Source: Paramylibacter kogurei
Lineage (GTDB): Bacteria; Pseudomonadota; Alphaproteobacteria; Rhodobacterales; Rhodobacteraceae
DNA: 64,000 bases
Reading direction: 5' to 3'
NCBI RefSeq assembly: GCF_002742285.1
Contig: NZ_MDGM01000003.1
Location: 1 to 64,000, forward strand
Both the position numbers and the translations under genes were made by a program. Positions 10,207-54,396 of this stretch are shown here, piece after piece. The notes beneath the pieces are model-generated. The model ran no database searches, was not told the DNA's origin, and saw only the letters and a program-made list of their open reading frames with translations. The stretch's first letter is position 1; the number at the start of each line of letters is the position of its first letter.

Positions 10207-10900
10207 CCAAAAATGTCGGTGTTCGCACCGTGATGAACTTATCAACAAAACGCCAAACGCAATCAAACAAACTGCTAAAAACACATCAATCCCCTTGATA
10301 CATTGCACAATGCTCCGGTTCCCCTCGAAGCAATGCACATTACAACCCTACCGATAGTAACTGACTACTACAAATTTGAATCAATTGTGGCATTTTTTGG
10401 TTACTCACAAAAATATTAATAAACCGTATGACATTTTTACGATTATTGATCGTAGGCATGGTCGGTAATGACGCGTGTTTCAAAAACTCTATCGGTCGAG
10501 CACTTTTACACAATATTTAACACCAATTCCGTTCGCCAAATTGTTCTGGGAATCGGGGTGATATTGGGGTGTTTCTGAATAATATGACATACTGAGGGCT
10601 ACCAATTTACAGTAGATTTTAGAGGCCAGAAAAAAGCCTCCCAGTCCGCTTTGATTGCAAGAACCTGTTGGGTAGAATGTTCGCCCAAAATTGTCAATTT
10701 GTTACAGGTTCTCATGAGGTGATGGCGGAGACGAAGTCCGCCAAACTATCTATATAAAATACTGTTATTATTAAACTAAATTTTTAAAAATTATTTCTAT
10801 ACCACTATTTATACCTCACAAGATTGATTACTTGCCTAGTCGATTTCAGCAAGCCTGGTCGATCTAAGGTTTTCAATAATTGAAAGCGTTACTTTCGTAG
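10207..10900. other. Non-coding spacer at left end of the putative island
   Basis: I see no gene here. The stretch is AT-rich and holds the upstream region of the giant gene. An inverted repeat GAACCTGT (10671-10678) / ACAGGTTC (10704-10711) lies 11 bases left of the tRNA-derived repeat at 10723. A short GAGGC/GCCTC hairpin sits at about 10622-10640. No clear promoter could be assigned. Confidence 0.6.
10723..10736. repeat. Putative att site: copy of tRNA-Ser 3' end
   Basis: TGGCGGAGACGAAG is an exact 14-base direct repeat of 54304-54317, the CCA end and 3' acceptor/T-arm side of the tRNA-Ser gene. An integrase fragment starts about 165 bases to the right, and a full integrase lies next to the tRNA copy. 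This is the arrangement expected of the distal att site of an element inserted at a tRNA 3' end. The copy is followed by TCCGCC, which can pair with its GGCGGA, so a hairpin is an alternative reading. Confidence 0.6.
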
Positions 10901-11404
10901 CATTTCGACCTGCAACGCGGCGAACTTGTTTTCCAGTGCCTCTATGATATTTTCCACGAGGTTATTTTGGAATGGGCTGCAACGCTAACAGATTTAGGGT
11001 TTAAAGATGATGATGTGTCATTCCCGAGCAATAGACACATGGTGAATAAGAAGGCGTTTCGAGAAAATGTTGGTGTCTCAATCCCAGTTATGGCCACCAC
11101 GCATGCAGTGACCAAAGCTTTTGCAATGGCATGTCGCAATAGCCCAGAAAAAATCACACCGCATTCCGCCAAGCATTCAATCGCCGCCGAGCGCGACCGG
11201 CGTCGGTTAAGCCACGAACAACGCAAAGCCTGGTCTGAAAATATTGGACATGATAACGAAACGATCACGGAGCAATATTACGGAAAACTATCAGATGACC
11301 GCCGCTTTGAGCTACTTGAAGAGGTGCAGGAAGACCAAATCAGTCCACCGTTGAATTTGTCTGATGAAGCGAAAATTGAGATGGCAAACGAATTTTTGAA
11401 ATAG
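10901..11404 (+). pseudogene. Tyrosine integrase, C-terminal fragment
   Basis: The open frame begins right after a stop at 10898-10900 and has no credible start; the first alternative start is a TTG at 10967. It encodes the end of a tyrosine recombinase: an H-x-x-K-H segment (PHSAKHSIAAERDRR), W.ENIGHDNETIT and the presumed catalytic tyrosine in EQYYGKL. The N-terminal core-binding domain and first catalytic arginine are missing, so it is probably inactive. It lies beside the 14-base tRNA-Ser repeat and is best read as the remnant of the recombinase of the island, or of an older element at the same site. Confidence 0.75.
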
Positions 11405-12018: not shown

Positions 12019-12891
12019 ATGAAAAATGCAATTGTAAACAATGCAGATGAACCCGACCCACTTGAGTCCTCAGAACGAGAACGCTCAAACTTCGTGCGCG
12101 ATATTGTGCAGCGGCACGAACTCTCAACAGATGCTTCGTCGGCGTGGCCAGCCTCTACACCAAAACATATTGTGCAATTTTGGGACGACATGCAGCAATT
12201 ACCTGACGATGTAAAAGCTTGTATGAACTCTTGGAGGCAACTCGAGCAAGAGGGATTTGAAATTGAAATATTCGATAGAAACGCTGCAAGCACTTTTATC
12301 CGAACGCACCTTGGGGCGCGTCATGTAGACGCTTTCAACCAGTGCTACCACCCTTCGATGATGTCAGACTACTTTCGATATTCGTACGTGCTCGTCAAAG
12401 GAGGCTTTTATATTGATGCAGACGATGTGTACCACGGTAAGCCAATTGACAATCTTTTTGAAGACGGACGCCTGAAGCTCCAACCCTTCTGCTACGATTT
12501 AATAAAGGCTCAGATGGTTCCAGCAACGGTTTTTACAGAACCAGGAGCTAATCGGCCAGAATGGATATTCTATTTCAATACGACGCCACTTATCGCGCCT
12601 CCAAATCATCCTATAGTTGAAAGAGCGCTTTTGAACGCGACTGTATCTTTGGAAGCCGATAAATCGGATGGCTTACCTGAAGTTCAAGCTGCAACTGGAC
12701 CGGGAAACCTAACTAGATCGATTTTCGAAGTGATTGGTGCAGGTTGCCCATCTGATACTCTAATGGTTTTGCATGATTGGGAACAAATATCTACAAGTCA
12801 GTGGCCACTTAGTTACCGCAACGACTCGAGGAATTGGAGGCTCTCCAATCAGCAGGTGTATAAGGCATCCTCACCGACCGACGCGCAATGA
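12019..12891 (+). CDS. GT32-type glycosyltransferase (DXD sugar-transferase family)
   Basis: 290 residues, predicted cytoplasmic. It shows the Gly_transf_sug/GT32 pattern: a PKHIVQFWDD start motif (about 48-57), a conserved SW (71-72), then SDYFRY (116-121) and GGFYIDADD (128-136), where D133-A-D135 is the DXD metal/nucleotide-sugar site. Members transfer a sugar from a nucleotide sugar to a glycan or lipid acceptor; donor and acceptor cannot be read here. Its stop overlaps the next start (ATGA at 12888-12891), so translation of the three-gene operon is coupled. A purine-rich stretch (AAGAGAAG) precedes the ATG. Assignment to the family is firm; the product of the pathway is unknown. Confidence 0.85.
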   Translation: MKNAIVNNADEPDPLESSERERSNFVRDIVQRHELSTDASSAWPASTPKHIVQFWDDMQQLPDDVKACMNSWRQLEQEGFEIEIFDRNAASTFIRTHLGARHVDAFNQCYHPSMMSDYFRYSYVLVKGGFYIDADDVYHGKPIDNLFEDGRLKLQPFCYDLIKAQMVPATVFTEPGANRPEWIFYFNTTPLIAPPNHPIVERALLNATVSLEADKSDGLPEVQAATGPGNLTRSIFEVIGAGCPSDTLMVLHDWEQISTSQWPLSYRNDSRNWRLSNQQVYKASSPTDAQ

Positions 12892-15116
12892 ATCTTGCAC
12901 GCAAACAGCTGGCTATCCTACGCTTGGCAATTCGCTTAGGACACGGCTTTCGTAAATTTTTACCTAAGCAAAGGGCAAGAGCTTTCGGACACCAGCGGTC
13001 TTTGGCGGTAAAGACTGTTGAAAAAATCTACATAATCAATCTTAATAGAGAGCCAGGTCGATGGTCTCGCATGAAGAAAGAGCTTCGGCGAATTCAAGAT
13101 GCCTTCGGCTACGATCTTTTAAGTCTTTCGGAAAGATGTACTGCTGTCGATGCGAGGGACTTCCTGCAAGATCCGACCAAAAGTGGGGATGTTGACCCTT
13201 TTTACACGTTGGCAGAGCAACTTTTTGTCGAGCCTCAGCCTATGACACTACCAACAAATTTTGAGCTTGAAGCGCCTATCCGAATGAGCCGTGCAGAGGT
13301 AGCTGTTGCCAGATCACACATCGACGTTTGGAGACGAATTGCGCAAGGCGAGGAAGAGCATGTTCTCATCCTGGAGGACGACGTATGGTTTCACACAAGT
13401 TTCGCCCGTCATTTTGATCAAGCTTGGAATGACATTCTTACCAATAGCGAAAGATACAACGGCTTCGACATACTTTATGTTTCATACATGGAAGCGACGA
13501 ATGGTGCTCCAAAGTCCTTTGTTTCGGAAAACGTTTTCAAGCCTGAGCGCGGACTTTGGTACTTGTCAGGGTATGTTCTCTCTCGGCAAGGGGCAAAAAA
13601 ACTTCTTGGATTACTACCTTGTCGTGGTCCAGTCGATCTTTGGATAAATCACCAGTTCGGTGAGATGAAGGTATACGCTACAAAATGCCCCATTGTTCGC
13701 CAACGAACAGATACTGCTTCAACTAATTCATACTCTGTCCTTCCGTCCCTCACTAAGATCGGCGCGATCAACAGCGAGGGCGCAGCCTTATTTAGTGCGT
13801 TTCCTAGTCAAGTGCCTGTTTTTTCATTTGGCCCAGCCAACTCTGGCATTTCGTCCTTGGCAATGGCTTTGTCAATGCTTGGGTATCGATGTTGTAGCGA
13901 TCTCGACGCGCTTCCAAACGAAGAGATGAAACAACTTTGTAGTGGGAGTTCGGATCGAGTATTTGACGCGTACGTCAACATTGGGTGCCTCGAACCAATG
14001 GTCGGGGATCTCCGCATGAAGTATCCCGACGCCAAGTTCATAATAACGGTCTGTCGCAACAGCCGTAGTGGGCGAAGCATACAAGACATTTTAGCTAATC
14101 TCGATGGCGCGGACGTGATCGAGTTTGACACCGAAAACGTCAATGCATGGCGGATTCTCTGTGAGCACCTCAGGTGTGTCCCACCATTTTGTGCATTCCC
14201 AAGATTGGAAGATCTGGGCAAAAGGCACTTAGTTGAAGCAGGAAATGAACCATCTGTCTCTCATGAACAAGCACTACCCAAGTGGGATTCATCGCCCTGG
14301 GTTGTTGAAAATGATTCCCGCAGATGGTCAGGTATTCAGATCGATCCACAGACCGAAACAGGCAAAAAAGACAACGCTTCTATTGATGATAGTTCTGATC
14401 AGTTCAACCTGACAACTTGGTCACCGCGGTCAGACACATTTACCGGAAATTTGGCCTTGTTCCGCCCTGAAAACGTTACCCGCCTTGGTGTCGAAGGCGT
14501 AACGTTACAAGTCAAACGAGAAGAGTTGCGTGTTCGAGAATACAGTGCAGGAGCGATAACCAGTGATGCTGAATATCTTTATGGGAAGTTCGAAGCAACT
14601 TTTCAGGCTTCTGACGTTCCGGGAGTAATCACAGGGTTCTTTCTTCACCGTAACTCGCCACATCAAGAAATTGACATCGAAATTGCTGGCAATGCGCCCA
14701 ATCGCCTTATTGTCAATGTCTTTTACAATCCAGGAGATGACGGTGCCAAGTTTGATTACGGATACCGGGGTTCTCCAAGGCATATCGAACTTGGGTTCGA
14801 CGCTTCCAAAGGGATGCACCATTATGCTATCGAATGGACCCCGCATGAGATTCTGTGGACGGTTGATGATCGGCTAGTACATCGACGTGTGCTTTGGAAT
14901 CCAACCCCGATTCCCCATTTGCCTATGAAATTACATTGCAACACTTGGCCTACTCGGTCGCCTAAACTTGCAGGACAGCTCGCCCTACAACGGCTTCCTA
15001 CCAAGACCTCGGTACTCTCGATCCAAGTCCACCAGTGCCGGCAAATATTATTAAAAAAAGAGACCGAGACTCTCAAAAACTCTACTCTTTCAGCTAACTG
15101 TGGAGCCTCAAAATGA
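12888..15116 (+). CDS. Fusion: GT25 glycosyltransferase + sulfotransferase-like + GH16 domain
   Basis: 742 residues with three recognisable parts. Residues about 45-270 are a GT25 (LPS-type) glycosyltransferase: IYIINLNREPGRW, SRAEVAVARSH and ILEDDV (161-166). Residues about 310-440 resemble a Sulfotransfer_4-type PAPS fold: FSFGPANSGISSLAMAL...LGY in the P-loop place and YPDAKFIITVCRN in the 3'-phosphate site, but the usual P-loop Arg/Lys is missing, so sulfotransfer is uncertain. Residues about 505-715 are a GH16 beta-jellyroll with the catalytic pattern E594-I-D596-I-E598. No signal peptide is visible, odd for a GH16 hydrolase, so the domain may act as an intracellular transglycosylase, editing enzyme or binding module. 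Both ends overlap neighbours by 4 bases (ATGA). Confidence 0.8.
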   Translation: MNLARKQLAILRLAIRLGHGFRKFLPKQRARAFGHQRSLAVKTVEKIYIINLNREPGRWSRMKKELRRIQDAFGYDLLSLSERCTAVDARDFLQDPTKSGDVDPFYTLAEQLFVEPQPMTLPTNFELEAPIRMSRAEVAVARSHIDVWRRIAQGEEEHVLILEDDVWFHTSFARHFDQAWNDILTNSERYNGFDILYVSYMEATNGAPKSFVSENVFKPERGLWYLSGYVLSRQGAKKLLGLLPCRGPVDLWINHQFGEMKVYATKCPIVRQRTDTASTNSYSVLPSLTKIGAINSEGAALFSAFPSQVPVFSFGPANSGISSLAMALSMLGYRCCSDLDALPNEEMKQLCSGSSDRVFDAYVNIGCLEPMVGDLRMKYPDAKFIITVCRNSRSGRSIQDILANLDGADVIEFDTENVNAWRILCEHLRCVPPFCAFPRLEDLGKRHLVEAGNEPSVSHEQALPKWDSSPWVVENDSRRWSGIQIDPQTETGKKDNASIDDSSDQFNLTTWSPRSDTFTGNLALFRPENVTRLGVEGVTLQVKREELRVREYSAGAITSDAEYLYGKFEATFQASDVPGVITGFFLHRNSPHQEIDIEIAGNAPNRLIVNVFYNPGDDGAKFDYGYRGSPRHIELGFDASKGMHHYAIEWTPHEILWTVDDRLVHRRVLWNPTPIPHLPMKLHCNTWPTRSPKLAGQLALQRLPTKTSVLSIQVHQCRQILLKKETETLKNSTLSANCGASK

Positions 15117-16726
15117 AAATCTTATCTTACAACCCAGGCCACGATGGCGCATTTGCATACATCAAAAACGGCTGCTTGATCTTCTCGATCGAAGCTGAAA
15201 AAAACTCCAAATACCGTCATTCGATAGTATCTGTGCCAGATGCTTTCGACGCCCTTGCCGAGCTTGAAGAAGCTCCTGACGTTCTTTGTCAAGGAGGCTG
15301 GTGGCCTAGTGACTCTCTACGAGAAAAGGAGGTTGTCGCAGGCTATCGAGAAAGCGATTACGGGACAGTAAGTTTGAGTAAAAAACGTTTTTTGGGAAAG
15401 ACCATCGACTTCTTTTCTTCGTCCCATGAGCGATCACATCTCTTATGCGCGTTTGGGATGTCCGACCTACCCAAAGGAACACCGTGTTATGCCTTGCTTT
15501 GGGAAGGCGTAATCGGAGCATTCTATGAGATCGATGCCGAACTTAATATTACAAAGATATCAGAAGTGTTACCAGAGCCTGGCCATCGCTATGCGCTGCT
15601 TTATGCATTAGCGGACCCAACTTTCGACAAGAGCACCGCTGAGTACTCCCGCTTGTCCGACGCAGGAAAACTGATGGCGCTTGCTTCCTTTTCGAAGAGA
15701 AATCGACCGACGAGCGAGGAAGAGAGAATTTTGTCGTTCTTGTTTCAGGACTGTGAGCATCTAAAGGTCCGGGACTGTGAAGCTCTGAAAACACTGCGTC
15801 ACTATAATGTAGGGTTGGAGGATCAAGAGTTTCGAAGTTTTGCGGGCATATTCAGTGATCGTCTGTTCGACCGTTTTGCACAGTTCGCAGAGAACAATTT
15901 GAAGAGAGGAATGCCGTTGTTAATCGTGGGAGGTTGTGGGCTTAACTGCGATTGGAACACCAAGTGGAAAGACTCAGGACTTTTTAGCCATATTTTCGTC
16001 CCTCCGGTCGCCAATGATGCGGGTTCTGCAATTGGCACCGCCATTGACGCCCAGTTCCACCTCACCGGTGAACCAAAGATTGAGTGGGACGTATACTCTG
16101 GACAACATTTTGTTTTGGAAGATGGAGCGGATAGTGCTGAATTTGATGTATTGGAGCCGAATGTTGCGACGGTTGCTGAGCTATTGGCCAATGATTTGAT
16201 TCTGGGATGGGTAAACGGTCGTTACGAAATTGGTCCACGCGCTCTTGGCAACCGGTCCATCTTAGCAGCACCATTTAGCGCCAGTACGAAAGAGAGACTG
16301 AACGTTATTAAGCAGAGGGAGCAGTTTCGACCGATTGCTCCCATTTGCTTGGAAGACGATGCTAAAAAATGGTTTGGTTGTTCTCAGCCGAGTCCTTTCA
16401 TGCTTTTTACCTACCGGTCCTCAACAACTGAGCTTTCAGCGGTTACTCACGTGAATCAGACTGCTCGAATTCAAACGGTATCAAAGCGATGTAACGTTCG
16501 TATGTACGAGTTACTGACTGCGTTTAAAGACCTAACGGGATATGGAGTGCTGTGTAACACTTCTTTGAATTTCAAAACTAAAGGTTTCATCAACACGATG
16601 TCAGATCTTTCGACATACACATTACAGCATCAACTTGATGGGTTCGTGATCGATGGGCGGATACACTTGCGGAAAAAGTCATCGCGATACCAGACATACT
16701 TACGTGAACACTGTCGACAACGTTGA
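15113..16726 (+). CDS. NodU/CmcH/TobZ-type O-carbamoyltransferase
   Basis: 537 residues. The N-terminal Kae1/ASKHA-like domain starts MKILSYNPGHDGAFAYI, with the His-Asp of the metal/carbamoyl-adenylate site at H10-D11. The C-terminal carbamoyltransferase domain carries EIGPRALGNRSI, a REQFRPIAPI motif and NTSLNFK, all typical of the family. Such enzymes use carbamoyl phosphate and ATP to carbamoylate a hydroxyl of a sugar or natural product. The start overlaps the stop of the fusion gene (ATGA, 15113-15116), so it very probably decorates the glycan made by the two upstream transferases. The exact substrate is unknown. Confidence 0.88.
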   Translation: MKILSYNPGHDGAFAYIKNGCLIFSIEAEKNSKYRHSIVSVPDAFDALAELEEAPDVLCQGGWWPSDSLREKEVVAGYRESDYGTVSLSKKRFLGKTIDFFSSSHERSHLLCAFGMSDLPKGTPCYALLWEGVIGAFYEIDAELNITKISEVLPEPGHRYALLYALADPTFDKSTAEYSRLSDAGKLMALASFSKRNRPTSEEERILSFLFQDCEHLKVRDCEALKTLRHYNVGLEDQEFRSFAGIFSDRLFDRFAQFAENNLKRGMPLLIVGGCGLNCDWNTKWKDSGLFSHIFVPPVANDAGSAIGTAIDAQFHLTGEPKIEWDVYSGQHFVLEDGADSAEFDVLEPNVATVAELLANDLILGWVNGRYEIGPRALGNRSILAAPFSASTKERLNVIKQREQFRPIAPICLEDDAKKWFGCSQPSPFMLFTYRSSTTELSAVTHVNQTARIQTVSKRCNVRMYELLTAFKDLTGYGVLCNTSLNFKTKGFINTMSDLSTYTLQHQLDGFVIDGRIHLRKKSSRYQTYLREHCRQR

Positions 16727-17166
16727 AGTCGCTCTCGGTAGGTTGGCTTCTGCGCTCCCACGCAACAATTTCAAAACTGCTCTCGAACTTCGAGTATGGT
16801 GTCCAGGCTCGTTGATTGAGAAGAAAGGGTGAGAAGTTGCCGTTCTTAATGTCAGCTAATGGGATTTTCCGAATGTCCAGTTTCGGGCAATTGGCAAGAC
16901 ACGAAGGTCGTGCCCGGAACGGCAGGTAAGGGCCGTTCGCTGCGGCTGACACAAAGGGCGGAAAGCGGAAGTTCGCTGCACTCGCAAGCTATCGAGCGGC
17001 CACCAGCGCAAGCGGACATTGGCTTCGGGCATGTACCCTCACACAAGGGCTTTATGTGCATTTAGTAATTTCAACAGCTAACAGATGAAAAAGCTTCCGT
17101 TATTAACCCGATACTTGTAGCCTATCAATTTTGGAAACCATATTTGCAAGAGAGATTAACACTGTG
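16727..17166. other. Intergenic stretch, no supported gene
   Basis: About 440 bases between the carbamoyltransferase and the ATPase. The middle (about 16860-17065) is visibly richer in GC than its flanks and has open frames on both strands, but neither shows a family pattern. It looks like non-coding scrap at the junction of two imported modules. No terminator hairpin with a T tract was found. Confidence 0.5.
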
Positions 17167-19800
17167 ATGTCGGACAGCGCGAGTATAGAAAGCAGCGACG
17201 ATACTGTCCCTAAACGTATCTTAGCTTGGTCAGAGAGCCGTCCGCTATGGCAACGCGATGCGCTGCGCGGCATTGTCCAGAACGGTTATCCGGACGAAGA
17301 GGCGATAGCGGAGTTACTGGCGCTCTGCAAAAAAGAGCATGGCGATCCGATGGTTGTGCAGGTGGCTAACCCACTTACGAAGGAGCATCTGCCGGTTGAT
17401 CCCGGTGCGGGCGAGTCTATTTCTTTGTCCAGCATCTCAGGTGTTTCGGGTGTAAACCAGCTTGCAACCGGCCAGACGCTGAATTTTGAGGAGGCTGGCC
17501 TGACCATTCTTTACGGACAGAACGGCACTGGAAAATCCGGCTATACGAGGATTCTCAAGAATGCTTGCCGCTCACGCCATGCTGGGGCGATCATGCCCGA
17601 TGTTTACAGCTCTTCCCCAATGGGAACAGCAAAAGCCGCACTGAAAATCACTCGTACCGATGGCTCATTGGAAACCCTCGCGTGGGAAGATGGCTACGAA
17701 GCTGCCGAGGCGCTTTCGGCCATCACTGTCTTTGACCGCGAGGCGGCTTCGGTACATGTTCAGAAGAAGAATGAGGTTTGGTTTCGACCCTTCGGCCTCG
17801 ATATTCCGGATGACCTAGCCGGTGTGTGTCAGGAAATCAGAGCACGCCTGACGACCGAAAAAGAAACATTGGAAAAAAAGCGCAACTCCGTTTTCGCCAA
17901 TCCAATCTGGTCGAGCCGCTCTGCGCTCGGCAAAGCCCTTTCTTCGCTTCGTCATGATACCGATATCGCGGCCATAAAGCCCAAGACACCCTTTTCGGAT
18001 GCGGACGAAGCGCGCCTGACTAAGCTCCAAGCCGATCTCGCTCAAGACCCCGCTGTGGCGGCTAAAGCTCAGCGCGACTACGCGATCCAGCTCGATCAAC
18101 TAAAATCCTATTTGAAGCGGATCGAGCAGACGCTAAATGACGAGGCCATTCAGGCGCTTCATTCTACAAAGAAGAGTGCTGACGACATGCGGACGGCCGC
18201 CAACACGGCAGCGCATGAGGCGTTTTCCGGGTTGGCGTGTGAGGGCGTTGGTGAAACCGTCTGGCGGACCCTCTGGGAATCCGCAAGGTCATATTCGCGA
18301 GTGGCGAAGGAAGCTGGGGCGGCGTTTCCACCACCGCAAGGGGATATCTGTGTTCTGTGCCATCAAGAGATCGACGAGCCCACCGCCGCGCGGATGCTTG
18401 GCTTTGAAGACTTCATCAAGAAGGACACAGAAACCAAGGCGGCAGAGGCCGAACGCGTCTTCAAGGAAGTAGAGCAAAAAATCCGCGCTGTTGCTATCCA
18501 CGTCAACAAGGTCTCTGCCGCCTATCGGAGTTTGAAAGCTGGTAACTTTACGCTCGCTAGGCAAGTGCTGAGATTCATCGCGCTCGCGCGCGGTGTGCAG
18601 GTACAGACGCTTGCACAGCTCTCCGGCCAAGAGGTTCCAAACTTGTTGGCTTTGCCTGAATCTGTCGCGGAGGCCGTAAACACCGAAGCCGCGCAGACCC
18701 GCGCATATGCGGCTTCTCTCGATGATGCATCCGGCGGCGAAGCACGGGAAGCCGTGCTGAACGAACAGGCCGATTTGCAGGATCGGAAACAAAGTCACGA
18801 GCTGCTGGATATTGCGAAAACAGAGATCGCGAGGCTCGCAGAGCTAAAGCTCATTGAAGACTGCTTGCGCGACACCGCCACCACGGCGATCACGCGTCTC
18901 GGGAACGAAATTGCCGACAATCTGATCACGCCTCGTATGCGCGACCGGTTTCAACAAGAGATCGTCGCGCTGGCTGGTAATCGCGTTCGGGTCGAGGTCG
19001 TGCGCTCGGGGGGCAAATTCGGTTCACCGCAATACGAGGTGAAGCTCTATGCCAACCCCAAGGCCAAGGTCCATGATGTGCTCAGCGAGGGCGAGCAGAC
19101 GTGTGTGGCGTTGGCCTCATACCTTACCGAACTAGCAAATGCATCGCATACATCGGCGCTTGTGTTCGATGATCCGGTTTCATCACTCGATCATCGCTGG
19201 CGCTCAAAAGTAGCCAAGCGCCTGGCAAAGGAAGCCGGCGTGCGGCAGGTTATCGTGTTCACGCATGACATGATCTTCGTAAACGATCTGGCACAGCTGG
19301 CTGCGGAGCGAAATACGCCGACTACGCTGGCGCATCTCACACGCGGACAGGATGTCGTCGGCATCGTTAACAAGGATTTGCCGTGGACTGCCTCTAGTAT
19401 TCGAGACCGGATTGACAAACTTGAAAAAGAAGCCCGTGCCGCAAAGCGCTTGTTCGAGGAGAATGACGACGAGGGCTACAAAATCGCAGTATCATCGCTC
19501 TACAGTCGATTGCGGGCGACTTGGGAACGGGCGCTAGAGGACACCGTATTTGCCAATGTTGTAATGCGTCATCGCGATTACATTGACACCAAAAATTTGA
19601 AACGTGTCACAGCTTTAGAAAAGTCCGATGTGCAAACTTTCCAAAATGGGTTCAAAAAGTGCTGTGACTTCGTCGATGCACATGATCCTTCCCGTGGCCA
19701 TGATCCCGAACCACCGGAGCCATTCGAAGTCATGGCCGACATTATGTTGTTGAAAGACTGGTCTGCAGAATTAAGGAGTAAGATGAATGGGGCCACTTGA
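17167..19800 (+). CDS. AAA_13-type ATPase with zinc-hook motif (PrrC/RloC-like architecture)
   Basis: 877 residues from ATG 17167; a TTG at 17131 would add 12. The ATPase is of the split SMC/Rad50 kind: Walker A GQNGTGKS (117-124), coiled-coil-like helices, CVLCHQ (395-400) in the middle as a possible zinc hook, then the ABC signature LSEGEQ (639-644), Walker B ALVFDDPVSSLDH (664-676) and an H-loop FTHD (698-701). The N-terminal AWSESRPLWQRDALR segment is common to a family of uncharacterised ATPases. The architecture recalls RloC/PrrC anticodon nucleases, but I do not recognise their nuclease motif in the C-terminal 175 residues. It stands alone at the left of a defence-type block, so a role against phage or foreign DNA is inferred, not shown. 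Confidence 0.75.
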   Translation: MSDSASIESSDDTVPKRILAWSESRPLWQRDALRGIVQNGYPDEEAIAELLALCKKEHGDPMVVQVANPLTKEHLPVDPGAGESISLSSISGVSGVNQLATGQTLNFEEAGLTILYGQNGTGKSGYTRILKNACRSRHAGAIMPDVYSSSPMGTAKAALKITRTDGSLETLAWEDGYEAAEALSAITVFDREAASVHVQKKNEVWFRPFGLDIPDDLAGVCQEIRARLTTEKETLEKKRNSVFANPIWSSRSALGKALSSLRHDTDIAAIKPKTPFSDADEARLTKLQADLAQDPAVAAKAQRDYAIQLDQLKSYLKRIEQTLNDEAIQALHSTKKSADDMRTAANTAAHEAFSGLACEGVGETVWRTLWESARSYSRVAKEAGAAFPPPQGDICVLCHQEIDEPTAARMLGFEDFIKKDTETKAAEAERVFKEVEQKIRAVAIHVNKVSAAYRSLKAGNFTLARQVLRFIALARGVQVQTLAQLSGQEVPNLLALPESVAEAVNTEAAQTRAYAASLDDASGGEAREAVLNEQADLQDRKQSHELLDIAKTEIARLAELKLIEDCLRDTATTAITRLGNEIADNLITPRMRDRFQQEIVALAGNRVRVEVVRSGGKFGSPQYEVKLYANPKAKVHDVLSEGEQTCVALASYLTELANASHTSALVFDDPVSSLDHRWRSKVAKRLAKEAGVRQVIVFTHDMIFVNDLAQLAAERNTPTTLAHLTRGQDVVGIVNKDLPWTASSIRDRIDKLEKEARAAKRLFEENDDEGYKIAVSSLYSRLRATWERALEDTVFANVVMRHRDYIDTKNLKRVTALEKSDVQTFQNGFKKCCDFVDAHDPSRGHDPEPPEPFEVMADIMLLKDWSAELRSKMNGAT

Positions 19801-20098: not shown

Positions 20099-21670
20099 TT
20101 GCAACACGAACAGCGAAAGACTGGCTTTCATCTGATTTCCTTTCAGACAAAGTCCACCCACATACCGTTATTTACAAACGAAGATTTCGAGCCTGGAGCA
20201 AAGGCGTCGGTAATAATTGGGCCAAACGGATCGGGTAAAAGCCATGCCCTTGCCGCCCTCGCAAACGAGTTGACCAATATTCATCGCATCTACAGAAACA
20301 AGTACCGCGAACCCGACGGGCCAAAGCCATCAAAACGGTTGCGTATTCTGGAAACTCAGGACGAGCTGCCCGGTCTTTTCCCGCATGAAAATAAAGAGGC
20401 GCTTAACGAGGCTGATGTCGATGCGCGCATTATGTACGCATTGGACGGCGATGTTTGGGAAGTGAGCAGATATGGCCGAGAGATCAAAGTCCGTTTGAAC
20501 GAACGCTCGGTTGGGCTTGAGAACCTACAGTTTGCCGACCGTGTGTTGGCACTCGCCCATTTGCCATTAGACAAGTTCAGATTTGCTCAAAGAGCAGACG
20601 AACAATTCTACAGATATCTCGGTCTTCGCCAATCTAACAACATGACAACGACCGGTGCCCTCTCTACGCAAGCGCTGATAAGTTTTCTTGAGGCCATGGA
20701 TAGGCCAAGCTGGAACAGTTTCAGAGTTGATTGGCTGGAACGCCTTGAACTGGCTTCGCCGTTTTACATAGGCCTTGATTTTCGAATGTCAGAACTTCTT
20801 AAAGCGAGCCAAGAAGGGGAATTCCTCAAAATTGGTCTCGATTATCTGGAACGACGGCAAGGTTCAGCGCGGTTTAGGGTTACTAGTGCGAATCAAGATT
20901 GGCATGATCAGCTGGTTGAACTCTGGCCCTTTGTAAAAGCTATTAGACCCATCCTTCAGTTTGGAGAAACGACGAGAGGGCGCAAGGGAGAGCATCTTGT
21001 TCCGATCACGCCGCCAGTTCTTGGCATGGATGTGTCTTATTCAGAAATTGCGCGATATTTGCTCCTTGGACGAAAGCTACAGCTGTTCGGACAAATGCGC
21101 CTTCTTTTTACCAAAGGTGATGAGATCGTGGCTTTCGATGATTTGAGTTCTGGGGAGCAACATATCTTGAGCACCACATCGCAATTGCTTGCCAATTTGG
21201 GCGAACGCTCCGTTGTCCTCATTGATGAGCCGGAGATAAGTCTGCACCCTGATTGGCAACGCCAATACATTCCCTCGCTCCTCAACACGTTCACGGAAAG
21301 CCCAGAAACTCACGCTGTCATCGCCACGCATTCCCACTTTCTGGTTTCAGATGTTGAGGAAACAACCGGGTCGCTGACAGTTGCGAATGCAAATATGGGT
21401 CACTTCGATTCGTTTGATGGAGATGTTTTTGGTCGATCTGCAGACAATATTCTCTACAGGGTGTTTGGCCTAGGATCAGCCGGCAACCGCTACGTTGAAC
21501 ATGATCTCGCAACAGCCCTGAAGATGATCTCCGGAACAGAAGATGCGGACTTGGATAGACTCCGAGAGATCAACGAACGGCTTCGACCATTGGCTTCACA
21601 CGATAATGCGGCGCTTCGCGAAATTTTGGGTTCAATCAAGGTCTATCTTGAAAGGGAAACTGATGCTTAA
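20099..21670 (+). CDS. ptuA: AAA ATPase, Septu-like PtuA
   Basis: 523 residues from a TTG start at 20099; no in-frame ATG lies near, so the start is uncertain. Walker A is GPNGSGKS (41-48). The ABC-type signature LSSGEQ is near residue 350, Walker B LIDEPEISLHPDWQ near 373-387 and an ATHSHFLVSD H-loop near 415. The order and the SLHPDWQ motif are those of OLD/RecF-like ATPases, with no TOPRIM nuclease following. The next gene is an HNH nuclease whose start lies inside this gene's end (8-base overlap). An ATPase of this kind followed by a small HNH protein is the Septu (PtuA-PtuB) antiphage arrangement; a retron reverse transcriptase is absent. Family call firm, system call likely. Confidence 0.75.
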   Translation: MQHEQRKTGFHLISFQTKSTHIPLFTNEDFEPGAKASVIIGPNGSGKSHALAALANELTNIHRIYRNKYREPDGPKPSKRLRILETQDELPGLFPHENKEALNEADVDARIMYALDGDVWEVSRYGREIKVRLNERSVGLENLQFADRVLALAHLPLDKFRFAQRADEQFYRYLGLRQSNNMTTTGALSTQALISFLEAMDRPSWNSFRVDWLERLELASPFYIGLDFRMSELLKASQEGEFLKIGLDYLERRQGSARFRVTSANQDWHDQLVELWPFVKAIRPILQFGETTRGRKGEHLVPITPPVLGMDVSYSEIARYLLLGRKLQLFGQMRLLFTKGDEIVAFDDLSSGEQHILSTTSQLLANLGERSVVLIDEPEISLHPDWQRQYIPSLLNTFTESPETHAVIATHSHFLVSDVEETTGSLTVANANMGHFDSFDGDVFGRSADNILYRVFGLGSAGNRYVEHDLATALKMISGTEDADLDRLREINERLRPLASHDNAALREILGSIKVYLERETDA

Positions 21671-22265
21671 CCTTCAAGCTTGCGCAACAGTAGATTTGAA
21701 TGTCCTGGATGAACTACAGGCCGTTGATGACGACGCTAAGAAAGCTGAATGGTCCCGGCAAACCAATTCCGTAAAAGCATTCAAAAAAGCGGTCATGGAT
21801 CATGGAATGGCTGAACAGGACAGCAAGTGCGTGTGGTGCGAGTCAAAGCTTGGTTTGGAGGCGAGGCGTAGCGCACATCGAGATCATATCGCGCCCAAAG
21901 AACACTATAGGAAGTGGACCTTTCTGCCCGCCAACATTGCGGTCGCTTGTGAGGCTTGCAATGGTTTCACGGTCAAATCCGATCTCGACACTATTGCGGT
22001 CGAAGCACCCAACTATGAGGAATGTGATTTTCGGGTTGTTCACCCTTATTTAGACAATCCTGTAGAACACATTGAATTTGTTCAAGAGGAAAAGAAAGTT
22101 GTAATGGTCGGTCTTTCGGTTAAGGGTTGTTGGACCATAAAAAACCTTCAACTTGATGGTACGGCCGCCACGGCGCGTAGAGCGTTTGATAGAATATTGG
22201 AAGACAATGGCTTATCGAATGATCAACGAGAACTAATTAACCAAGCGATGGCGAGTCTACTTTAG
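21663..22265 (+). CDS. ptuB: HNH endonuclease, Septu-like PtuB
   Basis: 200 residues. The start is the ATG at 21663, inside the last codons of the ATPase gene; an upstream extension of the frame to 21543 would overlap the ATPase by more than 120 bases and is not favoured. The HNH/zinc fold is clear: CVWC (56-59), AHRDHIAPK (71-79) with the general-base histidine, and CEAC-N-G-F (96-102). The downstream half shows no other motif. Tight coupling to the ATPase implies one complex, as in PtuAB, where the ATPase controls a DNA-cleaving HNH subunit. It could also be a more general ATPase/HNH two-gene restriction pair. Confidence 0.78.
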   Translation: MLNLQACATVDLNVLDELQAVDDDAKKAEWSRQTNSVKAFKKAVMDHGMAEQDSKCVWCESKLGLEARRSAHRDHIAPKEHYRKWTFLPANIAVACEACNGFTVKSDLDTIAVEAPNYEECDFRVVHPYLDNPVEHIEFVQEEKKVVMVGLSVKGCWTIKNLQLDGTAATARRAFDRILEDNGLSNDQRELINQAMASLL

Positions 22266-22569: not shown

Positions 22570-23709
22570 TCACCCTTCAAGCTCATGAAGAATTTTCTTT
22601 AGTTTTTCATTAAGCTTTTCGCCATTCTCGCCAAAATGAATTTCTCTATGAACACTAGGACATATTGCACCTACCCACCTAGGATGGTCAGGCCCATTAT
22701 CAGACATTTGTCTGGTATGATGTGCTTCGAGATATGGTGAGCCATCTTTGCGTTTGAAGGGAGCAGGTTTGCCGGTGAGTTCACATACGCCATTTGCTCT
22801 AGCAAAAACGTAATCCTTAACGGCCTTACTACGTTTTCTGTACTCCTTTGGAGCTGATTTCCATGAACTTTTATTGGTGGCTTTACCCGCCTGAATAGCT
22901 TTCTGTTTCAACTCCTCCAGAGTTTTCCCTTTGGGAGGCACATACTCAACAGCACCAAATTCTGAAACATGTGCGTTCTCTTTCGGAACCAAATGAAACC
23001 GTACAATTTTCCGAGTGGCTCCGTCCCGATCCGGACCTTCAACCTCATCCCAAGATTGGCAAGCTAGCTTTCCACGAAATATATAGGGCTTACCTTTTCC
23101 AGTAGCTTCAAAAAGTAAAATCTCTTTGCCTTGTTCGGTGTGCTCAAGAATAGCCTTATTACCACCGGACATTTCCATATCGCCCACCTGCCCTTCACCA
23201 GTATACAGAAAAACACCATTGTCTTGCCACCCATCCTCGTAACCAAACTCAGCGCCCGATTTGCCTGTAAAAATGAAAACATAAGGCTGGTTTGCCGGGG
23301 TCGATATCCCGCCCTGTTGCTGTCCTCCGAATATTCGGTGAATGTCATCCTGGCGGGAGTAATTCTGACCGATTTCGAAATTAGCCAACTTATTGATATG
23401 CACAATTTCATATCCAAAATGCTCCATCGCAGGAGCAAAAGTAAGTGATTTGGGATTAAAGTTCGAGATGCCAGCTCTAATTTGAGCCATTCTCGCTACT
23501 GCCTTCATTGGTAAATGCTCATCGCCTACCTTGATAAAATAGCTTCGCGCCCCTTTCGTACCCTCACCGGTTTTGGCTTGAAGAATTCGGTTAGCATAGG
23601 CCGGGTACTTTTTTGGTGTTATCTCAAAATACGATTCTATCTCATCTTCAAGACTACCTTTAGTTAAAGTTGCAATCAGCTTTTCAAGGTTCGTTTGTAT
23701 CGTCGACAT
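22570..23709 (-). CDS. McrA-like type IV restriction endonuclease (SRA-like + HNH)
   Basis: 379 residues. The middle part (about 113-242) begins IGQNYSRQDDIHRIFGG and contains FGYEDGW, FLYTGEGQVGDMEM and a KEILLFEA strand, the pattern of the SRA-like domain of the ScoMcrA group that reads modified DNA bases. The C-terminal part is an HNH nuclease: C309 with LEAHH (327-331) and ICPSVHREIH (349-358), supplying the zinc/metal and catalytic histidines. The N-terminal 110 residues are an unassigned domain. It should cut DNA with modified cytosine or another modification, excluding modified phage DNA; the modification recognised cannot be read. It is the only minus-strand gene in the defence block, so it has its own promoter near 23710-23800. 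Confidence 0.8.
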   Translation of the reverse strand: MSTIQTNLEKLIATLTKGSLEDEIESYFEITPKKYPAYANRILQAKTGEGTKGARSYFIKVGDEHLPMKAVARMAQIRAGISNFNPKSLTFAPAMEHFGYEIVHINKLANFEIGQNYSRQDDIHRIFGGQQQGGISTPANQPYVFIFTGKSGAEFGYEDGWQDNGVFLYTGEGQVGDMEMSGGNKAILEHTEQGKEILLFEATGKGKPYIFRGKLACQSWDEVEGPDRDGATRKIVRFHLVPKENAHVSEFGAVEYVPPKGKTLEELKQKAIQAGKATNKSSWKSAPKEYRKRSKAVKDYVFARANGVCELTGKPAPFKRKDGSPYLEAHHTRQMSDNGPDHPRWVGAICPSVHREIHFGENGEKLNEKLKKILHELEG

Positions 23710-24215
23710 AAATCAGTGCTTTCAATAGAATAAGTCAATAACCACCAGCAAACATGTTGCTTCACAAGCTGTCAATAAATGATCGAATTTGAACCAATCA
23801 GCCTGATATAATACTGCTTAGCTTCGCTTCTGCCGCCAACTTCTGCCTTTGGCATACCAGCCATGCGTTACGAGATGTGTGCCGTCAGCACTATGAGACA
23901 ACAGGTAATGTTTTGCTAAGCTAGAGTTTTTGGTTCATCGTAATCCAAGGAAGGATATAAGATGAGAACGAGAACAGGGCCGAATGGATCGGCTGATAAA
24001 CATGTTAAAGAGATTAAGCGCAAAACCCGCACTATCGACAAACTAATATGTGCACAAATATCATAGGCACCATTAAAAACAGCACTTTGCGCGCGCGTTA
24101 TTTATTACTGAAGACATTATCAGATTCGACCCCGAATTAAGCCCCACTTTGTTCCCTTGCTGTGCAACCAAAGAGGTCTTAAGCTCGGGACAAATAATAG
24201 TAAAAGACAGTGTTT
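23710..24215. other. Divergent intergenic region with transposase remnant
   Basis: About 500 bases between the divergent McrA-like and helicase genes. Apart from the transposase scrap at 23962-24066 no gene is supported. It must hold both promoters; I could not define them. Confidence 0.5.
23962..24066 (+). pseudogene. N-terminal scrap of an IS3-type transposase OrfA
   Basis: A 34-codon frame starts MRTRTGPNGSADKHVKEI and goes on KRKTR before diverging and stopping. The RTGP.GSADK.V..I...TRK pattern is, from memory, the start of OrfA of certain IS3-family transposases. Nothing of the helix-turn-helix or the OrfB integrase core follows. It is probably a decayed insertion sequence end between the McrA-like gene and the helicase. 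Confidence 0.5.
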
Positions 24216-27200
24216 ATGGCGCTTTTCAACCCCTTAAGATCAAAGAACGAAAACATAAGACCTCTGCTTGAAAGATGTCTCTCCGTTGATCTCGAAGTGA
24301 ATCCCAAAACCTCAGAAATCTTTGACATGGCTGCGGTGCGGTTTGGCGACGACACTGCTGTCGTAACCCCGAAGGGCGTACTTAAGCAATCACTTGACCA
24401 ACTCGAGAAAGAGTTGGGGAAAACGCTCCACGTCATAGGCCATAATATTCTGCGACATGATATCGAACACCTGTTAGCCGCGCGCCCGCGCCTAGCTGCG
24501 AAAATGGTCGCACCCATCGATACGCTCTGGCTCAATCCGCTGGCTTTCCCCCGCAACCCTTACCATCACCTCGTAAAGCACTACCATGATGGGCGCTTGC
24601 AGTCAGGGCATGTGAACGATCCCGAGCTTGATGCAAGGCTGGTGTTTCAGATCCTAGAAAACCAAATCGAAGCGCTGACTGAACTAAATGTGCAATCACC
24701 TGATATGCTCCTTGCATATCATTATCTAGGGACCCGAATAGATCGAGCAGATGGATTTGATGCCGTGTTCAGAGAAGTTCGCCAAGCAACCAATCCCAGT
24801 CGCGTTGATGCATTCGCTGCAATCACATCGCTTTTGAAAGGGCAAGCTTGCGAAAAGCAGGTACCAGGGGTTCTCGATAAGCTAACTGATCCGCGGATGG
24901 CTTGGCCGCTGGCCTACGCGATTTCCTGGATTTCGGTGTCGGGTGGAGAGTCCGTGATGCCACCGTGGGTTCGAACATCCTTCCCAGAATCTGCCATGCT
25001 CGTACGTGAACTGCGAGACACCAAATGCGGTAACAGCGCCTGCAATTGGTGTGCCAATATGAATAACCCAGTCAGCGCTCTTAAGAAATGGTTCGGCTTT
25101 GAAAGTTTCCGTCCCCAACCGGTCAACAGCGACGGTAACTCGCTGCAAGAGGTCATCGTTTCTGAGGCGATGAACCACGCAAATGTGTTGGGTATTTTGC
25201 CCACTGGCACAGGAAAGTCCGTTTGTTATCAAATTCCGGCGCTGAGCCTTTATGAGAAGACTGGAGCACTTACGGTGGTTATTTCCCCTTTAGTGGCGCT
25301 CATGGCCGACCAGGTCCAAGGGATGGAACGTGCAGGAATTTCCTCTGCTGTAACGATCAATGGAATGCTCTCAATGCCGGAACGACAAGAGGCCCTAAAT
25401 CGGGTTCGGATGGGGCAAGCGGCCATTCTTTTGATCTCCCCTGAGCAGTTACGCAGCCTTTCCATCCGATCAGTTTTGGCGCAGCGCGAAGTTGGGATTT
25501 GGGTATTGGACGAGGCGCACTGTGTCTCGAAATGGGGGCACGATTTTCGTCCTGACTATCGCTACATAGGGCGCTTTATCCGTGAATTTTCGGGCAATAT
25601 AGCACCTGCGCCAGTGATGTGCTTAACAGCCACGGCCAAGCCCGAAGTCGTGCATGACATCACGAAGCATTTCCGTGAACGACTGGGGGTAGAGCTTGGC
25701 CTGTTCGATGGTGGGGCAACGAGAACTAACCTGACATTTACCGTGCAACCAACAGGCAAGGAAAGCAAGCTTGCGGACATTCTGACAGCGATTCAAGAGC
25801 ACCTTCCTGCGGGTGACACGTCTGGGGCTGTAATTTACTGCGCGACCCGAAAGGAAACCGAACGTGTCGCCGTATTTCTGAAACACCAGGGGCTCGCGGC
25901 AGAACATTTCCATGCTGGATTAACGGCAGATGACAAGCACATTGTGCAAGAACGGTTTCGTGTCGGAGAGCTAAGGGTAATTGCGGCCACCAACGCCTTT
26001 GGAATGGGCATAGACAAGCCTGATATTCGACTGGTTATTCATGCGGACATTCCTGGCTCGTTGGAAAACTACTTACAAGAAGCAGGGCGAGCTGGTCGTG
26101 ATCGGGCACCCGCTGAATGTGTGTTGCTGTATCACACTGACGACGTAGAACGCCAGTTCAACCTCTGTGCACGCTCCCGTCTCGATCGCCACGAAATAGG
26201 AGCTATCTTAAAAGCGCTTAGACGCATGGACGAACACACGCGAAACAGCGGAACAGTAGTCGCAACGCCGGGCGAGATTGTGCTCGAAGAGAAAGACCGT
26301 GAGTTTGTTCGAGACAGCGCGACCGACGACACACGTGTAAAAACGGCAGTATCATGGCTAGAGGAGGCAACCCTCGTCTCGCGTGAAGAAAATCGCGTTC
26401 AGGTGTTCCCGTCATCGCTCATGGTGCGCACCATTGACGACGCCGCACAACGCTTGAACGGGGCGGAGATAACACAAACACGACGCAATCAGCTTTTGAA
26501 TATTGTGCGTCATATCATGAACACACAGCCCGATCAGGGCATTTCTACTGACGAGTTGACCGGCATAAGTGGGCTATCGCATCGCGAGCTTAGCAAAGCG
26601 ATGGCGGACCTTGAGACATTTAATGTTGCGCGAAACGACATTGCCATAACGGTTTCCGTGCACATCGGTGTGGAAAACCAATCGCGCGATCGCATCAAGC
26701 GCGCTATACAACTTGAAAAGGCACTCATTGCCAAGCTGCGTGAATTCGCCCCAGAAGCAGAAATCGGTGATGCTGCTTCATTGGATTTGTCAGCCGCTAG
26801 CCAAGTGTTGCGCGACGAAGGTCATGGAGATGCAATCCCCCATGTCCTTGATCGTGTTTTACGCAGCATCGAAAGGGATGGGCGCGACAGTGATGGTGGC
26901 AGGGGCAATATTCGCCTACGAAAACTATCGAACAAAACGCTTGAAGTAGTACTGCAGCGTTCGTGGCGGATTGTAGAGCATACTGCCTCTATTCGTTGGT
27001 TGGCGGCTGAAAAGCTTCTCGAAGTATTGATCGACAACGCACCCTCTGGCGCCCGCGGTAAAGACATTCAGGTCGACACAACTGTTGGCGAACTCTTGGC
27101 TGTGCTGAGGGGCGATACAATTATAAAATCATCCGGCGTGAAAGACATGACAAAACTCATGGAACGCTCGCTTTTGTGGCTTCATGAACAAAAAGTGGTA

Positions 27201-52964: not shown

Positions 52965-54152
52965 TTATTCCTTCTTTGATTTGCAATCAGATGAGACGAA
53001 CTGCGACCATTCTCCCATCAACACCCTGCGCCGTTCCAAAAGATCAGATCGGGCATAGGCACGTTCAACATCTGAGCCTACTTTATGCGCCAATGACATT
53101 TCCGCAACCTCTCTGGGTGCATTTGCAACCTCTGACGCCCAATCACGGAATGTGGAACGGAACCCGTGGACGGTGACGCCCTCGATCTTCATGCGCCGTA
53201 ACAGCATCAACATAGACATGTTTGATAACGGCTTGTTTCGCTTCTGCCCCTCAAACACATATTCCGACTGCATCGCTTGCAACGGTTCAATGATTTTCAG
53301 CATTTCATCTGTGAGCGGAACGCGGTGTTCTTCGCCTGTTTTCATCCGTTCAGCGGGGCAAGTCCAAAGCTTTGCCTCTAAATCAATCTCTGCCCAGCGC
53401 ATCCCCAAAACCTCTGACGTGCGCGACCCTGTGAGGCAAGTAAACATCAACGCGTTGGCTGCCATAGCGCTGCGACTTCTTAGATCGGCATAAAACGCGG
53501 GTACGTCCTGCCATGCCATTGCCTTGTGATGTTTGGGCTTGGCTTTTACCTTGGGCAAGACTTGTGCGTCTTTAATTGCTGTGATCGGATTTTCCCCATC
53601 GCGGAACCCTTTGGATTTTGCCACATCCAAAACAACCTTCATACGCTGGGCTAATCGTTTGGCGGTTTCGTGTTTCTCTGTCCAGATTGGGGCAAGGCAC
53701 ATCAACACCTCTGGCTGTCCAATGCTATCAACAGGCATCCTCCCGATCTTGGGAAAGGCATAATCGCGCAAGGTGTTAATCCATTGCTGCCCGTGTTTGG
53801 GGTTTTTCCATGTTGGCAAACGGTCAATATGCACTTGCTGGGCGATTTCTGCGAATGTCGGTATTTCGCGTTTGGCATTGAAACGTGGGTTTAACCCCTG
53901 CTTTGCCATGCGCCGATATTCCAATGCGCGTTCTCTGGCTTGATTCAGCGTGACAATATCCGCACCACCCAAACCAAAATCCGTGCGAAGCGGTGCACCT
54001 GTCTTGCCCTTTTGCCCCTTTACGACAACACGCACAATCCAGCGCCGCGCCCCAGAGGCATCAACCACAAGATAAAGCCCATTGCCATCACCATGACGCC
54101 CAGCGCCAAGATTCTCCACCAGCTTCTTTGTAAGTTTTCCTGATATCGCCAT
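52965..54152 (-). CDS. intA: P4-type tyrosine integrase next to tRNA-Ser
   Basis: 395 residues. The N-terminal DUF4102 arm-binding domain (about 1-90) has DGNGLYLVVDASGARRW. The catalytic domain has LTGSRTSEVLGMRW (Arg I), HGFRSTFRDW (His-x-x-Arg) and SLAHKVGSDVERAYAR (His and Tyr). All active residues are present. It begins 151 bases from the 3' end of tRNA-Ser and reads away from it. P4-type integrases insert at tRNA 3' ends, so this is the best candidate for the enzyme that placed the island whose far end is the 14-base copy at 10723. Confidence 0.92.
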   Translation of the reverse strand: MAISGKLTKKLVENLGAGRHGDGNGLYLVVDASGARRWIVRVVVKGQKGKTGAPLRTDFGLGGADIVTLNQARERALEYRRMAKQGLNPRFNAKREIPTFAEIAQQVHIDRLPTWKNPKHGQQWINTLRDYAFPKIGRMPVDSIGQPEVLMCLAPIWTEKHETAKRLAQRMKVVLDVAKSKGFRDGENPITAIKDAQVLPKVKAKPKHHKAMAWQDVPAFYADLRSRSAMAANALMFTCLTGSRTSEVLGMRWAEIDLEAKLWTCPAERMKTGEEHRVPLTDEMLKIIEPLQAMQSEYVFEGQKRNKPLSNMSMLMLLRRMKIEGVTVHGFRSTFRDWASEVANAPREVAEMSLAHKVGSDVERAYARSDLLERRRVLMGEWSQFVSSDCKSKKE

Positions 54153-54303: not shown

Positions 54304-54317
54304 TGGCGGAGACGAAG
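54304..54317. repeat. Putative att site within tRNA-Ser 3' end
   Basis: TGGCGGAGACGAAG, an exact direct copy of 10723-10736, at the tRNA end facing the P4-type integrase gene. Together the copies bracket 43.6 kb. Confidence 0.6.
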
Positions 54318-54396
54318 GGATTCGAACCCTCGAGACAGCTACAAACCGCCTACTCCCTTAGCAGGGGAGCGCCTTCGACCACTCGGCCACGTCTCC
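54304..54396 (-). tRNA. tRNA-Ser (anticodon GCU)
   Basis: 93 nt including an encoded CCA. The acceptor stem GGAGACG (5') pairs with CGTCTCC (3'), followed by discriminator G and CCA. The anticodon stem CTCCC/GGGAG holds the loop CTGCTAA with anticodon GCT. A long variable arm, as in serine tRNAs, precedes the T arm GAGGGTTCGAATCCCTTC. Its last 14 bases are repeated exactly at 10723-10736. Confidence 0.95.

Follow-up and report, generated by a model that had tools for sequence, protein, structure and literature searches.

A mobile three-gene glycan-enzyme cassette in a tRNA-Ser island of Paramylibacter kogurei and its possible role in phage exclusion

The 64,000-nucleotide stretch analysed here, positions 1 to 64,000 of contig NZ_MDGM01000003.1 of Paramylibacter kogurei (the window below), carries three overlapping genes for glycan-active enzymes at 12019-16726. 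An earlier note, made from the sequence alone, had taken them for an operon possibly making an undescribed decorated surface glycan or signal. The locus raises two questions: do the three genes belong together, and what do they do for the DNA that carries them? The trio proved to be a real unit, and a discrete mobile cassette of ~4.8 kb present in phage, plasmid, Tn7-type and tRNA-island settings. As to its role, the best reading, to which we would give about an even chance, is that of mobile cargo that excludes phages by way of a glycan produced at the inner face of the membrane. Beyond the earlier note, the unit was found to be mobile and its carbamoyltransferase dispensable, and several copies lie near anti-phage genes.

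Composition of the cassette and its recurrence as a unit

The window contains three open reading frames at 12019-16726 on the forward strand, of 290, 742 and 537 aa, with an ATGA overlap at each junction, as the earlier note had described. The product of gene 2, in which a GT25 domain, a sulfotransferase-like segment and a GH16 domain are fused, is called MID below. The genes and their parts are as follows.

12019..12891, forward: gene 1, GT32-type glycosyltransferase, 290 aa, DxDD at residues 133-136 (PF04488)
12888..15116, forward: gene 2 (MID), GT25, sulfotransferase-like segment and GH16, 742 aa (Pfam, full-length relatives)
12888..12968, forward: predicted basic amphipathic N-terminal helix of MID, residues 1-27, possible membrane dock
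13023..13637, forward: GT25 domain of MID, residues 46-250, E163-D164-D165 (PF01755)
13818..14054, forward: sulfotransferase-like segment of MID, residues 311-389 (PF17784 below cut-off)
14517..14969, forward: GH16 domain of MID, residues 544-694 (PF00722)
14667..14681, forward: GH16 motif EIDIE, residues 594-598
15113..16726, forward: gene 3, NodU/TobZ-type O-carbamoyltransferase, 537 aa (PF16861 and PF02543)

The two glycosyltransferase domains, the GH16 fold and the carbamoyltransferase of the earlier note were all recovered with Pfam scores above the cut-offs. Gene 1 scored 28.6 bits with PF04488 (cut-off 23) and has the DxD motif; the GT25 domain scored 53.9 bits with PF01755 (cut-off 24) with its acidic motif present, and the GH16 domain 102.6 bits with PF00722 (cut-off 22) with ExDxE present. 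Gene 3 belongs to the NodU/TobZ superfamily by both of its domains (PF16861 186.3 bits, cut-off 27; PF02543 75.4 bits, cut-off 24). The residues D133, D135 and D136 and the motif TGPG (226-229) of GT32 were invariant across 20 aligned rows. The EDD of GT25 (E163-D165) and E594, D596 and E598 of GH16, which we take to have the catalytic roles in EIDIE, were invariant across 21 aligned rows and also in 8 divergent MID sequences. The alignments leave out L033 (a near duplicate of L038), L056 and L058, and those of the carbamoyltransferase also L036 and L059. The best solved relatives in sequence comparison were an Och1-type mannosyltransferase for GT32 (E 5e-7), procollagen galactosyltransferases for the GT25 part, lichenases for the GH16 profile (E 5e-25), and the antibiotic-tailoring carbamoyltransferases GdmN, TobZ and decarbamoylnovobiocin carbamoyltransferase for gene 3. 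At E 0.001 the source genome contained one MID and one cassette-type carbamoyltransferase, and GT32 had one weak second relative.

Two further suggestions of the earlier note found no support. One was a possible sulfate step by MID, which is unsupported: PF17784 (Sulfotransfer_4) reached 21.5 bits with a cut-off of 22.8, covering only model positions 2-98 of 215. Close relatives retain the GxxxSGxSSL-like (P-loop-like) motif, but L047, L048 and L057 have it in changed form or not at all, and past residue 385 the segment varies freely among relatives; because of both, no sulfate step is claimed. The other was the analogy with Nod-factor decoration. With the NCBIfam NodU equivalog model gene 3 scored 263.8 bits against a cut-off of 1000, and thus falls outside that group. 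NodA (PF02474) was detected neither in the source genome nor in 14 control genomes, so its absence is uninformative, and nodB and nodC were not searched for.

Close relatives of MID were then sought in the contigs of 84,980 species genomes. At all 14 loci found the three genes were adjacent and in the same order as in the window, so that the arrangement is not due to chance, and the earlier note's doubt, that the three might occur together nowhere else, could be set aside by the neighbourhood search it had proposed. Identity to the window was 60-69% in MID, 66-79% in GT32 and highest, 73-83%, in the carbamoyltransferase. The hosts were Leisingera, Loktanella, Cereibacter, Rhizobium, Caulobacter, Sphingomonas (two loci), Acidovorax, Pseudacidovorax, Rheinheimera and four bins; the L036 copy has a short third gene of 442 aa. 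In each of the 18 records in which GT32, MID and a NodU-type gene follow one another in this order (the window, L028-L041, L045, L059 and L060), the GT32 and MID genes share 4 nt, and an overlap of the same length joins MID to the carbamoyltransferase in 15 of them, the exceptions being L040 and L045 with 32 nt and L039 with none. No open reading frame outside the cassette was common to more than two of the 14 loci, and no Wzx/Wzy, export or lipid-carrier gene was found as part of the unit across the loci.

Carriers, boundaries and variants of the cassette

The copies L037, L041 and L060 showed 87-90% DNA identity over the ~4.8-kb cassette and none beyond it in the stretches compared, the contig of L060 ending at the carbamoyltransferase side and bounding the comparison there. 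Upstream of GT32 their common stretch extends for ~110-200 bp, and its other limit is no more than 21 bp from where the carbamoyltransferase gene stops. L037 is on a Sphingomonas scaffold, L041, also from Sphingomonas, adjoins TniQ and a Mu/Tn7-type transposase, and L060 is on a P2-type phage contig. L029 and L030 showed 85% DNA identity, covering the cassette plus one further 209-bp match. For L040 and L045 the identity was 92%, compared on the downstream side only, because the L045 record begins inside GT32.

In the phage contig the cassette comes after a portal gene and a methyltransferase gene, and terminase, scaffold and capsid genes adjoin, an order that we take to be P2-type; the gene names are those of PHROG, matched to the open reading frames by inference. 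In P2-like phages the region from gpA to the portal gene gpQ is an anti-phage hotspot, which in P2 holds old and tin, according to section 10 of PMC9122126. Judged from the portal gene, the L060 cassette is on the same side as this hotspot. Among the plasmids with the cassette are a Citrobacter IncC plasmid and others from Rhizorhabdus and Sphingobium; nine plasmid records carried MID at E 1e-20, eight of which were inspected (H55 was left out). In pSWIT02 an insertion sequence interrupts the carbamoyltransferase gene, and GT32 is broken on one Aliarcobacter butzleri plasmid. No match was obtained for MID in the phage records or for the Citrobacter carbamoyltransferase DNA in the E. coli genomes.

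The cassette of the window sits near the left end of a 43.6-kb tRNA-Ser island, 10723-54317, which bears out the island suggested in the earlier note. The island is delimited by the following features.

10723..10736, no strand assigned: left att-like 14-bp direct repeat, exact copy at 54304
10967..11404, forward: putative C-terminal remnant of a tyrosine integrase, 145 aa (by eye, tentative)
52965..54152, reverse: integrase-like gene, tyrosine recombinase by eye, 395 aa, adjoining the tRNA (sequence reading)
54304..54396, reverse: tRNA-Ser (GCT), the island target (ARAGORN), with the right repeat 54304-54317 at the tRNA 3' end

With up to two mismatches allowed, the window has no third copy of the repeat on this strand. 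The integrase remnant is tentative because it had no significant Pfam match. In L142, from the same genus, the matches to window positions 10391 and 53220 are only ~0.63 kb apart, at the same tRNA and with one repeat copy; the site is nearly, not fully, empty, since part of the integrase gene still matches. Outside the island, window positions 1-10338 on the reverse strand encode a giant repeat protein of >3440 aa that runs off the contig; of the 32 other genomes of the genus searched, one encodes a counterpart of its N-terminal part, at 88% identity.

Quick trees of GT32 and MID agree in their main clades by eye. The rows from named genomes cluster by class and show no between-class transfer, so the case for mobility rests on context and on patchiness: full-length MID was present in 1 of the 389 other sampled genomes of the order and in 0 of 397 other genomes in the phylum sample.

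GT32 and MID look like the core of the system, with the carbamoyltransferase frequent but optional, because more distant pairs occur without it. The two-gene form was found also in an E. coli integrative element. This E. coli pair was present in 4 of 5426 genomes, two of the four being one strain, and in the three inspected no carbamoyltransferase was annotated within 15-18 kb. Neither was a carbamoyltransferase gene found in the inspected stretches of the Klebsiella and Aliarcobacter plasmids and L100. The gene is divergent in L099 and L102, and the R. leguminosarum and Sphingobium plasmids have it as the first of the three. In every case inspected GT32 occurred together with MID, each whole or partial. 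The carbamoyltransferases of L049 and L051-L054 (45-50% identity) had no GT32 or MID in the stretches compared, and L103 is a counter-example: its carbamoyltransferase is 62% identical, yet neither GT32 nor MID is present in the stretch compared, which stops at a contig end.

Two carbamoyltransferase regions were noted in addition. L049 (7995-13532, Salmonella plasmid pSA20083530.2) has the NodU-like gene by genes with the annotations thymidylate synthase, inosine/xanthosine triphosphatase, amidohydrolase and MFS transporter and looks like a small plasmid-borne biosynthetic cluster. L050 (6031-7179, Sinorhizobium sojae plasmid) holds a truncated cassette-type carbamoyltransferase, 76% identical over 73%, amid insertion sequences, and is perhaps a decayed cassette; matches of equal score were present in two S. 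fredii plasmids.

Proposed role and alternative explanations

All three cassette proteins look cytosolic. No transmembrane segment was consistent across the rows (19-residue Kyte-Doolittle maxima ≤1.73), and only single rows, L039, L059, L047 and L048, exceeded 1.6. The beginning of MID may be a membrane dock at the inner face: the best of its first 12 windows was at percentile 0.96-1.00 of the protein in hydrophobic moment, and residues 1-40 had a net charge of +4 to +10, both in 24 of 24 rows, duplicates included.

On the phage-exclusion reading the proteins would be cytosolic and held at the inner membrane by the basic amphipathic helix of MID. GT32 and GT25 would add sugars to an acceptor, GH16 would trim or transfer the chain, and the third enzyme would O-carbamoylate it. 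By keeping phages out, the product would benefit the element that carries the cassette, most likely through a change to an envelope glycan that phages need and less likely by action inside the cell. This reading is suggested because a conserved, apparently cytosolic, membrane-docking enzyme set rides elements that compete with phages, and the envelope route is favoured because it fits the membrane dock and has parallels. In the accessible parts of the respective papers, Tn5 mutants in a carbamoyltransferase gene are tabulated as potentially involved in phage infection of Pseudomonas syringae pv. porri (PMC7216180), and WapO is given as a putative carbamoyltransferase decorating the Pseudomonas lipopolysaccharide (LPS) core (PMC8005017). 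It is a bolder and rather doubtful proposal that the cassette represents a new immunity type, that is, a mobile two- or three-gene system in which a glycan would be built and carbamoylated at the inner membrane face by enzymes including a fused transferase and hydrolase, distributed among phages, plasmids, integrative elements and islands of Alpha-, Beta-, Gamma- and Epsilonproteobacteria.

Gabija, Septu, Shedu and Lit-type genes occur in the vicinity of cassette copies. In the window the island contains the following genes after the cassette.

17131..19800, forward: PDC-S06 candidate defence ATPase (PADLOC PDLC04891, 1e-202)
20099..21670, forward: Septu PtuA (PADLOC 2e-72)
21543..22265, forward: Septu PtuB, HNH (PADLOC 8e-29)
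22570..23709, reverse: type IV restriction enzyme-like gene (PADLOC mREase_IV 3e-16)
24210..29357, forward: 1715-aa protein with two helicase-like parts (PADLOC DpdF 1e-113 and GajB 3e-53, in separate stretches)

The last of these, DpdF-like and GajB/UvrD-like, is possibly an undescribed fused defence helicase. Elsewhere, Gabija genes directly adjoin L031, where GajA matches the first part of the model only, and are two genes away in L100. An annotated Shedu is ~1.7 kb from the Aliarcobacter copies L057 and L058 and an annotated Lit ~5 kb from the L058 copy, and a gene of Peptidase_U49, the Lit family, adjoins L099. The cassette of pSWIT02 is flanked by PDC-S06, AbiD and DUF1814, L045 and L047 have GmrSD domains nearby, in L045 the N domain alone, and ABC-three-component genes are 8-12 kb upstream of the E. 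coli pair.

Three further neighbourhoods were recorded. In E. coli (L139-L141) VirB-type conjugation genes, ABC-three-component genes, ArdC and the GT32 and MID pair share one chromosomal region. Multiubiquitin and ThiF-type genes, possibly a ubiquitin-like conjugation system, are near the Sphingobium cassette (L048, 2497-4941), and a 1245-aa CHAT-domain protein is encoded near that of L037 (4327-8064).

The association between cassette and defence genes is suggestive, not proven, and several results weigh against a phage-exclusion role. No recognised defence neighbour was present at several loci, for example L030, L036 and L039, and L040 had only a weak TIR match (2.5e-11). The three cassette proteins themselves matched 0 PADLOC families each (2023 database, E 0.01). 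The flank scan (PADLOC, E 1e-20), run on 160 proteins encoded beside 20 of the loci and on 195 from 19 control regions, gave matches in cases and controls alike; it leaves out one resistance gene (161 case reading frames becoming 160) and reading frames >1500 aa, <150 aa or running off the end, and the case family lists hold 25 of 30 and 25 of 46 families. With PADLOC alone, clear systems were present, among the matches listed, at 5 of 22 loci (the window, L031, L057, L059 and L100) and at no more than 2 of 19 controls, which is not a significant difference (Fisher p 0.27). A wider count gave 9 of 24 vs 2 of 19 (p 0.046), with Pfam and annotation used on the case side only. The counts were assigned to loci by hand from the scans, and case matches to Orf5, HEC-06 and RmrA and control matches to the RT and Cas1 models are without an assigned locus. 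The structure prediction proposed in the earlier note did yield models, of a mean predicted local distance difference test (pLDDT) score of 56.2 for GT32 and 53.3 for MID, too poor for use. Finally, also other cargo rides mobile elements.

Some matches were discarded. The DrmD match in the L045 flank is an IstB protein and false, the mad3 and Mko models are generic or false, matching 5 and 2 proteins of one control set, and an RtcR match is not proof of defence.

The main rival to phage exclusion is an ordinary, horizontally acquired decoration cassette for a surface glycan (LPS, capsule or exopolysaccharide) with no special anti-phage role, which we consider somewhat unlikely. The GT25 and capsule/sugar-transferase families are named for LPS and capsule enzymes, and WapO, as described in the part of PMC8005017 available, acts on such a glycan, the Pseudomonas LPS core. 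L038 is upstream of O-antigen-like genes, as judged by eye, and a second GH16 gene adjoins L029. However, the unit is not regularly accompanied by a polymerase, flippase or lipid-carrier gene, its neighbours vary between loci, and no transmembrane segment is consistent. The self-contained surface glycan of the earlier note is likewise unsupported, with no polymerase, flippase or export gene belonging to the unit and no consistent transmembrane segment. A GH16 enzyme without an evident export signal would be a misfit for an extracellular polymer. Moreover, Sphingomonas, Sphingobium and Rhizorhabdus carry the cassette although sphingomonads are not known to make LPS.

The cytosolic appearance of all three proteins would suit an anti-phage system that acts inside the cell, either by modifying a phage or host macromolecule after infection or through a soluble carbamoylated oligosaccharide. 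The fusion of hydrolase and transferase could both make and turn over a product, the procollagen galactosyltransferases related to GT25 modify proteins, and the defence neighbourhoods would fit as well. Nevertheless, such a system is unlikely, as the unit has no sensor or effector gene, the amphipathic helix of MID points to the membrane, and no precedent was found in the literature searched. More improbable still is a biosynthetic role, in which the trio would be a small cassette making a carbamoylated oligosaccharide as an antibiotic or signal; the antibiotic-tailoring relatives of gene 3 speak for it, but no exporter, resistance or activation gene recurs nearby.

Relation to known systems

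In the literature searched, with bioRxiv and most subscription papers outside its coverage, no description of the trio was found, in agreement with the novelty suggested in the earlier note. The known defences against phages act for the most part by cleaving nucleic acid, by exhausting metabolites or by cell killing, and the known sugar cassettes of prophages depend on membrane transferases. A compact, apparently soluble glycan-building unit that moves by itself and occurs near defence genes would add a chemical route to immunity or surface variation. The idea can be tested in the laboratory, since versions occur in E. coli chromosomes and on Klebsiella, Citrobacter and Aliarcobacter plasmids.

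The prophage serotype-conversion cassettes of the gtrABC type are, like the present cassette, mobile, phage-borne and built of few genes, and their glycosyltransferases alter phage sensitivity. They consist of a membrane flippase and membrane transferases, whereas the cassette proteins look soluble and include a GH16 fusion and a carbamoyltransferase. The cos-proximal accessory loci of P2 (old, tin) are small and swappable and on the same side of the portal gene as the cassette of L060, but no system of the cassette's make-up is named in section 10 of PMC9122126, and 'glycos' is absent from the main text of that paper. MID shares families and signature residues with bacterial GT25 enzymes and lichenase-type GH16 enzymes. 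It differs from them in having no evident export signal and in the fusion of the two domains via the sub-threshold sulfotransferase-like segment. Gene 3 shares its superfamily (PF16861, PF02543) with the O-carbamoyltransferases WapO, NodU and TobZ; it is set apart from NodU by the equivalog model, and the cassette members are 59-83% identical to the carbamoyltransferase of the window.

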